Assembly (NCBI RefSeq): GCF_019649055.1
Contig: NW_026570223.1
Coordinates: 1,302,001-1,366,000, forward strand
DNA: 64,000 nt
Direction: 5' to 3'
From: Paramacrobiotus metropolitanus
Taxonomy: Eukaryota > Tardigrada > Eutardigrada > Parachela > Macrobiotidae
A program made the translations under genes and the position numbers. The notes beneath the pieces are model-generated. The model made no database searches. It had not been told where the DNA came from and worked only from the letters and a program-made list of their open reading frames with translations. Shown here in pieces: positions 42,443 through 52,911 of the stretch (the first letter of the stretch is position 1; each line of letters opens with the position of its first letter).

Positions 42443-42796
42443 CTAAATCGTTACCAGGAAACCATGACAAAAGCATTTCACCGGTGTTCCGACGCAGATC
42501 CCGTTGGTGAAACGCCCGTTTCCTTGACAGTACTCTGTACAAGTAGCACCGTCACTGTCATCTTCACACAAACTGACGCAGTTGCTGCCGGAGCATCCGT
42601 GATCCGACGCCGGTTCTACTGCACGCGATGACCGGCTTCGACGAAAAATAAGTGGTAGTTGCGGTAGCTTTATCCCGTAATCTGCCCCGTATGGTGCTGT
42701 CTGTGTATCGCTCGCGCTTGTCACTGGCAGTGTGTGACATTTGTCGTACAAGGTCATACTCGCTGCTAATAGAGCTGATAACCAGAATCCCTTCAT
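42443..42796 (-). CDS. Defensin-like cysteine-rich secreted peptide (117 aa)
   Basis: ATG 42796 (CAGCATGA context) starts a signal peptide (MKGFWLSALLAASMTLYDKC). A ~45-residue pro-region ends in a basic stretch (FRRSRSSRAV), a likely furin-type site. The mature C-terminal part has eight cysteines, including GATCTEYC (C-x3-C), GIC and KCFC (C-x-C). C-x3-C followed by C-x-C is the signature of the cysteine-stabilised alpha/beta fold of invertebrate defensins and related peptides. An antimicrobial role is the usual one; other CS-alpha/beta peptides act on channels. No intron is needed. No activity can be read from sequence alone. Confidence 0.62.
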   Translation of the reverse strand: MKGFWLSALLAASMTLYDKCHTLPVTSASDTQTAPYGADYGIKLPQLPLIFRRSRSSRAVEPASDHGCSGSNCVSLCEDDSDGATCTEYCQGNGRFTNGICVGTPVKCFCHGFLVTI

Positions 42797-43975: not shown

Positions 43976-46900
43976 TTAATTAACATTTACTGCAGGATGA
44001 ATAATAACACTCGTCTCCTCATTAAGATACGCATCCGAATTCGGATCCGCTTCCGGAAACACAATAATATGCGCTTCCCCCGACATCACAATCCATCCAC
44101 AGACAAACGGCATCTTGGCGAACGTGCACTCATAGCCCTCGGTAAAACTGGCAAAGAAGCGTCGATCATTCACCGGCGCCTCCACCACCAACTCGCACTC
44201 CTTCTTCACCACCGCCACGCCACTCCAGCTCATCCGCGCAATATCCAGATGCGCCTTCAGGACCCCTTCCAGGAATTTCCCGGCATTCCGAATCCCCCGG
44301 ACAACGGTCGGCTCCCAGCGGTCCTGCTGCGCATAGGTATGAATTTCCCGCTGTAGACTGAACATCTCCCGTTCCCGGTTGGGCGTAGCCCGCAGATCCT
44401 GTTCGCTCTTCCAGGCCACTAGGGCGTTCCAGTCACCGACCGACGGGACGAAGAGCATTCCGGATTTGACGCCGCTCATGGCGTCAAGGGGGTTCTTGAT
44501 GGCAACAGCGCGGTAGAAATCGTAGTAGCAGGTTTGTACATGCAGCGCCACCATCCAGTGGACCCAGGGATATTTCGTGGTTAAATACTCCTGTAGCTTC
44601 TTGGCCGCGCTGTTGGTACCCAGGCCCTGTGATTTGGCCGTTAGCAACTGGGATTTGATATCATGCTGCAGTTGTTGTGATGGGTATGCCGCTTTTAAAT
44701 GCGCATCGGTGGCTTTTAGCGCTTCGTAAATACTGCGCACTTGGGTTTTCATGTATTCAGTTTGAAAAGCGATTGTGCTGTTGTCGAATTTCCCGCTGAG
44801 CTGCATGTACATTAGACGATACATTACGGTCTGGGTGTCTAATGCCATGATACTCTGCATCCATAATCCGTATGCTGTACGATTGTATCCGATTCCCTGT
44901 TAAAAATTACCTTTATAAAAACCATGGTTGCGATTCCGTAAAGAAAGAGCAAAGACAGAACATCTGTACAGTTACTTTTCCTTCCGAAATATTGGAAATG
45001 TCCTTTATAAAAATCATGGTTTCATTCGTTAAGAATTTTCTGTTGGTTGGTTCAGCAGCGAAAGTGCAACAAAACATCAGTATAATAACCGAAATATTTG
45101 ATTCCCTTGGAAATGACCTTTTTTGAAAATTACATATAATATCAAACATGTATTTTTTATTGATTGATCAGCAACGAAGAAGCAAAAGAACATCAAACCT
45201 GAACGATATCAAAGAGGAAATCTCCCAGGATGTTATGATACTGTCCCGACACTCGATCACGCATCCACGTGAGAATACTGTCCGGTGCGTACTGTTCACA
45301 GACGCGGAGGAATTCATCGCGTGTGGCGTTGTTAGAATTACGCATCATGGCATCCACTTTGTTCTTGATATTGCTCATGGCCTGCAGATGTCCCCGGTAT
45401 TCCTCCTTGATGGGTGAGATCGTATGGTACTGCACCATTCTGGCCTCAACCAAGGATAACCGATCGTTCAACACGGTAAACTCCTGTATCATCCGTTGGA
45501 ACTTGGGATCGGGACGATCCGCATTGCTTAACAACACAATCATGCGAATAATCTGGGCGAGAGAGCTGATAACACCACTGGCGGTTGTAAATACAGGGTC
45601 ACCTATTATACAAACATAATATTTCCTTTTTTATCATTTGTTTTATTTCTCAACTTATTATTACATAAGAATGTGCACCGTACGCTATAAAATTCACATT
45701 TTTTGTAAACTTTTGAATTATATTGGAGTTCACATGCCAAAAGCAGAGTTTAGCACATACCTGAAAAGGTCATGGCATGGATTCCAGTTGTTAGTAAAGC
45801 GGTGCCAAAGCGTTCCAAAGTTTCGGTAAGCTCAGGTATACTGGCACGTAGAGACTCCGTTTTATTGTAATTATCATCAAAATACTTCCGCGATTCGTTT
45901 TGTAAAAGAACGTCCAACATCTCGTCGTGATATGGAATAGTTGCCGGTTTGGACTTTAAGACACGAGTTTGGAGGAACCGATTGCGCACCGATCGCGAGG
46001 CTTTGCTGCTCTTTTCTTGCAGTACGTACTCGGGTAACGGCAACTCCACAAGACTCTGTTATTACACGTAAATTGGCTCAGAAAGTACTTACATCTTCGA
46101 TTGCTGCAATGGTTTACAAGTACCTCATCCATAATTTTAACATATTCATGTTCTGCATCAATAATGGCGCTATTCAGTTCTTCTTCTTCGCGGACAATCG
46201 TGCGCACGAAATCATCAGCCAGCAGATCTGTTTCCGTATTGAACAAAAACACTGCCTCGTTGTGGATCTCTGACTTTCGCTTGATTTCGGTGTTGTTGGT
46301 CAAGTACATTTCTTTCATGGCATTTTTCCATTTGGTGTGCTGCTCCATCAGTTCGGGAATATTGTAGAAATTCTTAGCTATATCCTAAGAATCAAGCAAC
46401 AGTGATTGCGCATGATATTGTAACTCGAAGTGACACTCGATTCAAAGTACAGATACTCCGGTCATCGAGGATGATCTTCCGTACCTCTTCCATGCGAGCA
46501 CGATACTGCTGCTTTGCCAGTTCAACTGAAGCCCGCGCTATCCCTCGCAAACGCTCCTGCCAGGTGGGCCATATTAAGCTTGTTAAATAAATCTTAAATT
46601 CTTGAGAGCCGGTACCCAGCTTGTAAAATTGCGGTAAAATTGTAAAAAAAAACAAATTATATGATGCTGCTATGTACAGTGCGTACGTACTCTGTAGATG
46701 GATGGAGTGGTCTTACCATGAGTATGGTTCGTTTCTCTTGCTGTTGTCGTGAATATTCTGCATGCAATGCCTTCGTGGTTTTATTGTAAATGCCCAGACC
46801 TTTCTCCAGAATCGCCTGCTTTCGCGTCAGTATAGTCGTGTTGCGGAGAGCGACTAGCCCCTGTGCATAATGGTACTGGTGGATGTTCATCAAGTCTTCA

Positions 46901-49810
46901 TCGGTCACTTCCTCCAAATCCGTGAGGAAGGCGTTCATATCGTCCCGGTATTTGTTGACGATTGCCGCAATGCTCTCACGCACCATGAGATCCAACTGGA
47001 GCTAAACGAAGCCACGAACGTAAACATTAATATTAAACTGAATGACGTTCAGCAGAGGAAACATTACTGCGGATATTAACCGCAGTATTTGGGTGGCTTT
47101 TGATAGTAATGGTGCGAACAGATTACGTACAGAATAAACATCGCCGACAGATTGAAGAGTGCCATTTTTAAACATGTTGGAATATAGCTGGAAAGAAGAA
47201 ACAGTTTCCAGTTCGCTGATTAAGAATAGCTGATGTACTGTAGTAGCAATGTAAAATGCATAGCAGAATATGAAAATACATTTATCCGAAACGTACCTCC
47301 ACATGTTGAACGAATTGTGTACCCTTGACGGCCTTTCCAAAAACTTTTTTAGGTTGTATATGGGGTGCTTTGAACAAATTGTCCAAGAAAGACTCACATT
47401 CTGGTCCAAAGTCATCGGCTAAAACTATCAAACACAATGATGTGCATTTAGTAAGTCTTGCAAAAATTAAATGTATTGTATATGTTCCATCTGTAATTTA
47501 CTCGCTAGGTACAGTATACTGTATATTATAAATGTACAGCGAGAATACTTATACTCGTACGTAAATCAAAATAGCAGAACTGCGTGACAGTAAAATTTCG
47601 TCGATAACGTAGTGAAGCGGCGCTTCCATATATCGTTCAATGGCTGTAACAATTTAACAACAAAAAACTCAAAAATCCGTATGAAGAAACGTTATTTCTT
47701 GAAAGCACACATTGCAACATTTTTTTGCGTTTTAAACTGCGGCACTTTATAGTCTCATACTTGTGATTACGGTATTCAACGAACAGCTTACTGGAAGGGA
47801 GGATTTTCAAGTTCTTGGTACTGGCTGCAATTTTGGGCATCAAAAAGCAAGATACATTGTTGTAGCCGGCCTCCAGTTCTTGGGATACGCTGGCTGATCG
47901 CTCTTGATCCATTTCAAAATACTCCTATACATTAACCAAACAATGCTATGTCAACATCTGATGTTATACTCTTTAACCACCAACCTCTCCCTTCGATTTA
48001 AAACAGTCCATTTTAACATATTTCTGCACTAAAACCCTCTAAAATTTCTGTACATATTTTATACAGTTATTGTTTTGTAATGTTATACTAGTCAACGTTT
48101 GCGGTACTTCCTGTACCTGTAGATATGCTTTGCCGCCATGCCATCCGTATTCGTGCTCCAGATCCCAATCACGCACAAGGAATACCAACTGCTGTAACAT
48201 TTTTCCGGCACCCGCTGCAAAATCCCAACTCTGACATGTAATCATTGTCACAAATAAAAATTCATAAAATTTCTGTTTTTAGCGATGGCTTATGCAAAAT
48301 ACATTAATTTCGTCAGCGCTTTGGAAACTACCAATTAAGTACATATATGCGCTTATACCAAAATTTTCTTTGGCCATAGCACTAGTCACTTGTAAGGTCA
48401 AACTGCCCACGAGATCCGTTAACTGCCGATCCAGAACGCCCATTGTGTTGATGATCTGGAAAAGAAAACATGCACTTTACAATTAACTGTAAGATCACTG
48501 ACGAGCCTCAAATAAATGTGCAGTTCGTTAAGCTTTACATTTTGTAATATAGTTACAAGAAAATAATTGACCCGATAGCTTATACTACTCTGTATTTGCA
48601 TCGAAAATACGATATCGTACTCCGTAAGCAGTTCATTTGAAGAAACAAAGTGACCATAAATTGTTCGAACTGATGTGGCAATCGAACAAAGTTTCCGCTA
48701 GGATTCCCATGAATTACAGCACATACCAGGGTGGAGGAAAGCATGCTGGTCAGATAAAACAAAGGTGATTCAGCCGCCTGGTTATTGATGTTATCCATCA
48801 TGCCCTGGGTGTCAATGAGGAATACGGCAACATCGTCGCCATTCTCATCCGGAAGTATGACGGGCTGCCGAGTAATCCAAAGGCCTTTCGTGAAGCCTTT
48901 ACTCGTCGATGCCGTGCCAAAAACGTTGCGGCACGATGGGAAATCCTCACGTTCATATAACCAACTGTCCATTGACATGTCCTGGTTGCTGACATTTTTT
49001 GGCTGTATAAAAATTATCGCTTGTATATGGTTATTGGAAATGTTTAAATTATCCCAAATTCAGAAATTCGTTTGTAGGTTACTATAACAAATTTATCACG
49101 TCACTGAAATCCAAGATTGTTTTGGTATTAAACAGTATTACACCCTATTATTACAGTCTTTTACACAATTCAACAACAGTTATCATACCCTACGGAAGTA
49201 ATAGTTACTGGTAGTTTATTAGCATATTAATTGTTAATACCGGCATTTTCGCGCTCCTGTGGAACCTACCAAACACAGCAGATAGCGATGCACAATATTT
49301 AACAGCGTAGATTTCCCTCCGCGATATTTTCCCACGATTCCAACAATGGCGATCTTCTTGTTGCCAACAATCGGGGATTTCAAAATATTTGTAAATAATT
49401 CGACATTCTGCAGTGCCATCGTCCGATTGGGCGTTATGCCAACAATCTAGAGGAAAAAACCGTAATAAATGAAACTGGCAACATACAAGCACAAGAAGCT
49501 GAAGGAAAATTGCGTACGGAATACAGCTGTACACCGACAAATGCAGGAAACAGGCACCGAAACATAGTACAGCACTAATATGGTTACTTATCAAAAAAAT
49601 GCTCCCGTATCAGTAGGCGCCACGCGCCATTATGGAATTGATATTGATGGCTAATTATTGTACCTGAAAAAGCGGCTCCTCGTTGTTTGTCTCATCTTGA
49701 CACCAGCACGGTCGAGCGCTGCTCGCGACCACATCCGATAAATTTACAAAAGTCCAAACAATAATAATGCATAAAATTAAATAAGGTTTACCTAAACACC
49801 GTTGTATCAT
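43976..49810 (-). CDS. GB1/RHD3-family GTPase with signal peptide and long helical C-terminus (~1098 aa, 13 exons)
   Basis: The exons (minus) are 49810-49664, 49446-49270, 48981-48727, 48455-48303, 48230-48117, 47924-47792, 47418-47297, 47001-46717, 46566-46495, 46384-46124, 46055-45761, 45602-45199 and 44854-43976. All join in phase with GT-AG. The weakest donor is GTATTT at 48302. The N-terminus (LILCIIIVWTFVNLSDVVAS) is a signal peptide or anchor. The GTPase core has the P-loop GKYRGGKST, switch region TKGLWITRQP, DxxG as FLIDTQGM, and the RD motif LVRDW that replaces NKxD in atlastins and guanylate-binding proteins. A guanine-cap-like NNVSCFLMPKI follows. From ~residue 370 it is helical (ERLRGIARASVELAKQQYRA). 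A hydrophobic helix is followed by a ~290-residue last exon unlike anything I recognise firmly. There is no clear atlastin-type double transmembrane hairpin. Confidence 0.8.
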
Positions 49811-51639: not shown

Positions 51640-52911
51640 ATGAAAGTCATTGGTGTTATATTAGCTGTCCTGGGCTGCGCCGTATGCCAGCAACAAACCT
51701 ACGTGTGGGATTTACTGAAGCCGGCTTTAACGGCGGAGGAAGTGCAAACTATATTGGCCAATCGGGATTTCGCCAACCAGTATCCCACTTACAACGCCGT
51801 ACCGCTGACCAGCTTTGACTGCACCAAAAAGACACAACCGGGATTCTTTGCCGATGTCGAGGCCCAGTGTCAGGTGTTCCATCGATGTGATATCAACGGA
51901 AATCGCACCAGTTACCTCTGTGTGAACACAACGGTTTTCAACCAGATCACCTTGGTGTGCGATTATTTCTTTAATGTCGACTGCCCACGGTAAGATCGGA
52001 AACAAGATGTAATTATTGATACTAATATTTTATCACTGAATAACTATTGGGTTGCTTAATATAATTACGTATAAAAATTAAAAATGCGATAGTAAACAAA
52101 GAATTGTCACTAAACCGAAAACACTTGCAAGTTAAAACTGCAAATGTACGAACTATAGAACTATAACAAGTAAATGTACTGTACTTATGTATAATCAGAA
52201 TATGCATCAACGACATACTTTTACTACAGGTCACAAGAGTTTGAGAACTTCGCTAATTCCCGTCTATACACCAACCAGGATTTGTTCGACACGCCTCCTG
52301 CCGATTATGTCCCACCGCAAAGCAGTCAAAGCGGCCAAATCGTGGCGCAGCCGTCTCGCGCCAAACCCTCCGTCGTCCCCGCCAAGCCAGTCCGTCCTGC
52401 GGGACCTCTCCTCAAACCGAACATCCCGGTTTTCCGTCCCGTCCAGCCAGTCTTAATCACACTGGCCCCGACCACCCAGATGATTCGCGATCAGCCTAGT
52501 AATGGAGGAGAAGACCAAGGCACCACCACGGAAATGATCCCAACCAGTGAGCAGTCGGCAGGATCAATGGAGACATCCAGCGGGGCCGCACCAGCGCAAC
52601 CCGGTATGGAAGGTCAACAAGGACAGTCACCAGCCGGCACGGAGGGCCAGCAACCGCAACCTGGAACTGAAGGTCAACAAGCACAACCTGGAGCGGAAGG
52701 ACAACAGCCTCAACCCGGATCGGAAGGTCAACAAGGACAACCTGGAGCTGGACAGCCGCAACCCGGAATTGAAGGACAGCAACCACAGCCTGGAGCAGAA
52801 AGTCAGCAGCCGCAACCCGGAGCGGAAGGACAACCACCACAACCTGCAGCGGAAACTACCACCGAGATGGGAGCACCCGCGGCCGCTCCAGAAGGCCAAC
52901 CGGCTCAGTAG
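51640..52911 (+). CDS. Peritrophin-A-type chitin-binding secreted protein (~343 aa)
   Basis: Exon 1 is 51640-51989 and exon 2 is 52230-52911, joined in phase 2 (CACG|GTAAGA ... CTACTACAG|G). A signal peptide (KVIGVILAVLGCAVC) is followed by one CBM14/peritrophin-A domain with six cysteines: FDCTKKTQPGFFADV, QCQVFHRCDINGN, YLCVNTTVFN and LVCDYFFNVDC. After the splice comes FENFANSRLYTNQDLFDTPP, then a proline-rich linker. Then come ~15 imperfect 9-10-residue repeats (GTEGQQPQPG, GAEGQQAQPG) and an alanine-rich end. CBM14 binds chitin, and a single domain with a long unstructured glutamine/proline tail suits a cuticle or gut-lining matrix protein. The repeat arrays would readily change length between individuals. 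Confidence 0.82.

Follow-up and report, generated by a model that had tools for sequence, protein, structure and literature searches.

Within a 64,000-nucleotide window of the Paramacrobiotus metropolitanus genome (C3:1302001-1366000; by window we mean the whole stretch of DNA that was analyzed), the minus strand from 49810 to 43976 carries a predicted gene for a GTPase of the GB1 family. The genome that was searched comprises 169,799,020 bases in 533 contigs. The gene model starts with an ATG at 49810, terminates with a stop codon that ends at 43976, and consists of 13 in-phase exons, all joined at GT-AG sites, with 3282 coding bases including the stop, that is, 1093 residues. The original prediction had given the same coordinates and the same number of in-phase exons, as well as a large terminal exon, all of which stand; its lengths of ~1098 residues for the protein and ~290 residues for the terminal exon are corrected to 1093 and 306 residues, respectively. 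The predicted protein comprises, in this order, a signal-peptide-like start, a short cysteine-containing spacer, the GTPase domain, a long helical part, and a C-terminal part that includes a module denoted here module X. The exons are as follows.

49664..49810, minus strand: exon 1, residues 1-49; signal-peptide-like N-terminus (~1-30) and PCWC spacer (34-37); the same layout is found in exon 1 of the paralogs
49270..49446, minus strand: exon 2, residues 50-108; the GTPase domain begins; P-loop GKYRGGKST (88-96) including Arg91
48727..49002, minus strand: exon 3, residues 109-200; switch I Thr146 and G3 motif DTQG (172-175)
48359..48455, minus strand: exon 4, residues 201-232; uncertain 3' boundary, with an alternative end at 48390
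48117..48214, minus strand: exon 5, residues 233-265; G4 motif LVRDW (245-249); alternative start at 48230
47792..47924, minus strand: exon 6, residues 266-309; the GTPase domain ends
47297..47418, minus strand: exon 7, residues 310-350; linker, the final part alignable with atlastin
46717..46995, minus strand: exon 8, residues 351-443; first GB1 middle-domain-like helical unit
46485..46556, minus strand: exon 9, residues 444-467; the second middle-domain-like unit begins
46124..46384, minus strand: exon 10, residues 468-554; remainder of the second unit and onset of a doubtful third
45761..46055, minus strand: exon 11, residues 555-652; weak possible third unit; top-scoring donor of the gene (CAG/GTATGT)
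45199..45602, minus strand: exon 12, residues 653-787; hydrophobic helix VFTTASGVISSLAQIIRMI; the significant module X match begins
43976..44896, minus strand: exon 13, residues 788-1093 and the stop; remainder of module X (significant at 733-904), then the C-terminal part

Gene model and exon 1

The model combines the exons selected by a gene finder, a dynamic programme for spliced open reading frames (ORFs) that uses codon and splice-site scores, with exon 1, the stop at 43976, and an exon 4/5 boundary based on homology. Of three intron penalties, the two stricter ones led the gene finder to exons 2-13, with exons 4 and 5 divided at an alternative boundary and, under the strictest penalty, with exon 2 truncated at its 5' end; with a much laxer penalty, its output fragmented into 72 pieces. 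When all 3969 GT sites of the strand are ranked, ten of the 12 donors fall within the top 6%, nine of these within the top 4.5%, and the weaker ones are donor 12 (8.9%) and donor 4 (34%). Because donor 4 is weak, the boundary between exons 4 and 5 is uncertain. The alternative chosen by the gene finder yields a protein of 1088 residues; the longer form is favored because its length in this region is similar to that of the paralog C46a.

Exon 1 encodes MIQRCLGKPY, followed by LILCIIIVWTFVNL, SDVVASSA, and RPCWCQDE, and the N-terminal hydrophobic core is LILCIIIVWTFV. Among the 313 Met-started ORF N-termini used for comparison, which are mechanical ORFs and not proven genes, none contained an equally hydrophobic 12-residue segment, and the value of the paralog C23b was attained by about three. 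The hydrophobic stretch is preceded by a positive n-region and followed by an acidic spacer and, judged by hydrophobicity and layout, is predicted to be an N-terminal signal peptide. In the paralogs C23b and C159, exon 1 reads MFLFLLVMISMI[AS]F and then LPCWC, with the same phase-0 intron immediately before the GTPase part. Because the paralogs share the start, the spacer, and the phase-0 intron, the join between exon 1 and the GTPase is credible, and the signal-like start and cysteine spacer appear to belong to the GTPase gene, as originally proposed. It is very unlikely that exon 1 is a stray or chance ORF, given that the signal, PCWC, and the intron phase are common to the paralogs. A start at Met59 in exon 2 is unlikely as well because it would remove a preceding stretch that is alignable with the paralogs.

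Several observations weigh against the model as drawn. By itself, the gene finder never picked exon 1, and it extended exon 13 past the stop at 43976 into the neighboring gene; since it merges neighboring genes elsewhere too, its agreement provides weak support. The exon 1 join of C159 was picked at one of two settings. On balance, the sequence suggests that one intact gene probably encodes the whole protein, a point that is part of the overall probability given below.

GTPase domain and its place in the GB1 family

The Pfam family GBP (PF02263) matches residues 70-303 (E 1.1e-27, 97.3 bits, cut-off 21.1), and the motifs reported originally were all recovered in the alignment, namely, the P-loop GKYRGGKST (88-96) with its arginine, the switch Thr, DTQG (172-175), and LVRDW (245-249). 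In GB1 GTPases, the motifs are designated G1, G2 Thr, G3 DT[QE]G, and G4 RD, and the functions of the residues just listed are known from the family. The closest PDB matches by sequence are atlastins (fly 3x1d, human ATL1), which share the GTPase motifs, with 6e-20 over residues 49-350; human GBP1, also a GB1 GTPase, is a weaker match.

If the target were simply an atlastin orthologue whose tail is unusual, this best PDB match and the atlastin-like DTQG and RDW would be accounted for. However, in a tree of 13 rows, the true atlastin of this genome, located on C2, clusters with the fly and human atlastins (support 100/100), apart from the target, which clusters with C23b and C159 (95/93); further copies on C44, C46, and C104 fall outside both clades. 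The tree includes a partial sequence (C159), a long branch (C46c), and several rows based on rough models, and it contains no external GBP. Moreover, after residue 345, the maximum 19-residue Kyte-Doolittle mean is 1.67, compared with 2.63 in the C2 atlastin control, and 19-residue windows revealed no atlastin-type hairpin, no C-terminal transmembrane (TM) segment, and no second membrane segment. The tree position and the missing hairpin, which the original prediction had already pointed out, rule out an ordinary atlastin orthologue for practical purposes, leaving it extremely improbable. The suggestion of a membrane-inserting helix fared less well and is unproven: the hydrophobic helix of exon 12 includes an arginine, and its score is lower than that of the atlastin control.

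A search of the genome with the N-terminal 379 residues gave 29 matches at E <= 0.1, a count that includes the exons of the target itself. Two GB1 copies, C46a and C44b, apparently lack a signal (these are the two that were inspected, with the start Met chosen by eye). Sequence comparison suggests that the GB1 (dynamin-superfamily) GTPase encoded by the gene belongs to a divergent subfamily whose members bear a signal peptide, an assignment covered by the same overall probability. Two copies of the signal-peptide GTPase gene, at C23:316216 and C159:238987, are near-identical by eye. In the assembled C23 copy (C23a), the reading frames of exons 1 and 3 are shifted; C23a and C159 read LVDIQG, and C23b has LVDTQG. 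The two copies could represent haplotypes or assembly effects.

To our knowledge, human GBP1 has no signal peptide, and the CaaX end of prenylated vertebrate GBPs is not present in the target, which ends with VNVN. Human GBP1 has been described as secreted (excerpts of PMC5571548). The original premise that GB1 proteins have no signal peptide is contradicted by Dictyostelium GBP and by plant GBPL2, according to excerpts of PMC12040241, PMC12489281, and PMC8565484. Dictyostelium GBP (Gnbp, Q54TN9; PMC8565484) is likewise a GB1 GTPase with a predicted signal peptide; it has 796 residues and, as described in the excerpts of PMC12040241, a longer helical part, a predicted C-terminal TM segment, and a cytosolic GTPase, whereas the target, set apart by description, has the PCWC spacer and module X but no C-terminal TM segment. 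Members of the Arabidopsis/tomato GBPL2 clade combine, as the target does, a GB1 GTPase with an N-terminal signal peptide, but they have about 600 residues and three TM helices (excerpts of PMC12489281), whereas the target, again by description, has none after exon 1. GB1 GTPases with a signal peptide thus have precedents, but the full combination found here looks unusual and did not turn up in the searches made.

Helical part and module X

As in other GB1 proteins, the GTPase is followed by a helical middle domain. Residues 340-440, 436-530, and 526-650 (segments 1 to 3) were scored with a profile built from eight paralog middle domains. For comparison, 2000 shuffles were made per segment, the counts below being those that the program scored, along with 36 decoys (35 scored) that consisted of helical, module X, and reversed sequences without overlap with the training rows. 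With the full profile, the three segments scored 15.5, 17.1, and 8.3 bits, values that were reached by 0 of 1955, 0 of 1985, and 2 of 1891 shuffles, respectively; the best clean decoy scored 5.1 bits. The scores were 10.2, 16.8, and 8.2 without C23b (best decoy 5.5), and 9.8, 13.2, and 4.0 without both C23b and the C2 atlastin (best decoy 3.9), so that segments 1 and 2 exceeded all scored decoys under the three profiles. With the smallest profile, one of the untrimmed paralog tails, which overlap the training rows by ~20 residues, scored 10.7 for its best domain, versus 9.3 for segment 1, and the trimmed decoys were relied on. Comparison of the first with the second unit by BLASTP gave E 0.002 for that pair alone. 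Because segments 1 and 2 surpass both shuffles and decoys, two tandem GB1 middle-domain-like units in residues ~351-530 are supported by the profile scores. This interpretation is tempered by the low scores of the units (8-17 bits) and by the third one, which ties with the decoys under the smallest profile; a third middle-domain-like unit at ~526-650 is doubtful.

In the genome, the C-terminal 714 residues match their own gene and three other places. The match on C82 (56% over 57 residues, E 7.3e-12) is a degenerate fragment at C82:87355-87534 that is similar to the last exon and suggests a lost second copy. The match on C52 (29%, E 7.5e-4), when used as a query, gave 25 matches at E <= 0.05, some of them to its own exons and the others to 17 further places, two of which lie on C131 in one predicted gene. 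A profile of 11 sequences (eight C52-matched places, the two C131 copies, and C52, with the target excluded) matches target residues 733-904 at 37.9 bits, compared with 6.6 for the best of 2000 shuffles. By this profile comparison, module X, that is, residues 733-904, is a member of a multi-copy orphan family of this genome. Some results detract from this assignment: the match of the target C-terminus on C131 has just E 0.057 (23%), the single C52 query did not return the target from the genome at E <= 0.05, and the stretches flanking 733-904 are not significant alone, though a global alignment is possible.

For the C-terminal part beyond the module X match, just the degenerate C82 fragment was found in the genome. 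The target C-terminus has nothing above the Pfam cut-off and no credible PDB match by sequence. Nine of the 11 module X sequences have no Pfam match better than E 0.01, and in the two longer module X proteins all Pfam hits are below the curated cut-offs; module X profiles built from 4 and from 9 sequences turned up no credible solved relative in the PDB, and none was found on viral contigs. A scan of prokaryote contigs with the 714-residue C-terminus produced one match of 45 residues (31%, Dehalococcoidia) that was judged to be chance. A single-sequence fold of exon 13 contains strands near the end at very low confidence (mean predicted local distance difference test score, pLDDT, 37), too low to be of use in searching for similar folds. 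Thus, the C-terminus, originally described as uncharacterized, remains so with respect to Pfam and PDB, but not with respect to the middle-domain-like units at ~351-530 and the kin of module X at 733-904. The predicted gene at C131:131153-139494 has two tandem module X copies with a helical-looking tail after each; the tails are TPR-like by eye, and the second copy has no TPR match in Pfam.

The nearest paralogs lack a match to the C-terminal 714 residues (E <= 0.1), which tells against a single gene and leaves the join between exons 11 and 12 to rest on one strong donor and on phase agreement. If the locus instead contained two adjacent genes, with exons 1-11 encoding a signal-peptide GB1 GTPase of ~655 residues and exons 12-13 belonging to a module X gene, the missing C-terminal match in the C23 and C159 paralogs would be expected, as would the occurrence of module X elsewhere at places without a GTPase match (with gene models at two of these). 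Unspliced, exon 11 reaches a stop three codons on, and an AATAAA lies inside intron 11, though introns 2 and 12 have one too. However, the exon 11 donor ranks best of the 12 (top 0.2%) and would be pointless ahead of a stop, the phases of exons 11 and 12 agree (1/1), the frame of exon 12 has no Met upstream of its hydrophobic helix, and the two exons are just 158 bases apart. Given these features, two separate genes are quite improbable.

Membrane side, proposed mechanism, and significance

If the signal is cleaved, the absence of any other membrane segment, together with the positive n-region, would make the enzyme lumenal or secreted, and we lean slightly toward this outcome. Alternatively, the protein may be a membrane-anchored, cytosol-facing GB1 GTPase with an uncleaved N-terminal anchor and a membrane-adjacent, perhaps acylated PCWC, similar to Dictyostelium GBP or atlastin. 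In favor of this arrangement, the retained catalytic motifs imply access to GTP. In Dictyostelium GBP, protease protection placed the GTPase in the cytosol despite a predicted signal peptide (excerpts of PMC12040241), which counts against a lumenal enzyme, as does the number of N-glycosylation sequons, which are not clearly enriched (11 vs 6.9 +/- 2.4 in shuffles, P 0.07). Being not significant, the sequons were dropped as proof of a lumenal location. On the other side, the positive n-region and the acidic spacer favor, by the positive-inside rule, export of the part that follows the hydrophobic stretch. Also, the target has no second membrane segment, whereas the Dictyostelium and plant proteins carry C-terminal TM segments, as far as the excerpts of the respective papers go. 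The cytosol-facing arrangement is a serious contender, if a little short of even odds.

GTP-driven pairing of G domains is the known mechanism of the GB1 family. In the mechanism that we propose, exon 1 would route the protein to the endoplasmic reticulum/endomembrane system, GTP binding would pair two G domains in an atlastin/GBP-like manner, and the lengthened helical stalk would transmit the hydrolysis-driven movement to module X, which may be the membrane- or target-engaging end, replacing the atlastin hairpin or the GBP lipid anchor. The purpose would most likely be defense or membrane remodeling, by analogy with other GB1 proteins. The silkworm BmAtlastin-n, an invertebrate atlastin-family GTPase likened to the target by description, has been described as antiviral (excerpts of PMC9005921). 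A defense role is an analogy only, drawn from the likeness to GBPs and to BmAtlastin-n, and this lessens its weight. Taken together, the best explanation is an intact signal-peptide GB1 GTPase with tandem middle-domain-like units and module X that would act by the proposed mechanism, with a probability of roughly 0.6. Its more specific version, a non-cytosolic mechano-GTPase, in which the intact enzyme would work in the secretory lumen or extracellularly, with the tandem units as the stalk and module X as the engaging end, is tentative and, on present evidence, unlikely.

We know of no proven case in which a signal peptide directs a GB1 GTPase to the non-cytosolic side. A literature search for such enzymes returned just the Dictyostelium paper, in which the GTPase is cytosolic. 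In the open-licence literature on tardigrade guanylate-binding protein/atlastin, no description of the present protein was found; the papers returned dealt with plant disordered proteins and with amphipathic helices. Passages that mention GTPase, guanylate, interferon, or dynamin are absent from a paper on tardigrade immunity (PMC7056985), as are passages that mention atlastin, guanylate, or GTPase from a P. metropolitanus transcriptome paper (PMC11191345).

Other features of the window include a small, secreted-looking cysteine-rich peptide just downstream of the GTPase gene (42461..42796, minus strand), with a spacing, CTEYC...GIC...CFC, that is defensin-like by eye; it has no Pfam match at E 0.01 and 17 further genome matches at E <= 1. 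On the plus strand, at about 52650..52860, a PGAEGQQ-type repeat tract lies within a predicted protein that has a chitin-binding CBM_14 domain, and gene models on this strand encode an F-box protein, an Ldh_2 dehydrogenase, and a TatD-like start (below cut-off). An immunoglobulin (Ig)-domain protein is modeled on the minus strand.

If the protein is lumenal, a signal peptide would have sent a GB1 GTPase to the non-cytosolic side, which would raise the question of GTP supply. If it faces the cytosol, an animal member with clear paralogs would join the amoeba and plant GB1 proteins with signal peptides, and its topology is testable. Either way, this genome appears to contain two features of which we met no description, namely, an expansion of GB1 GTPases that includes signal-bearing members (the target, C23b, and C159) along with apparently signal-less ones, and a multi-copy orphan module, at which no literature search was aimed, that would be fused to one of these GTPases.

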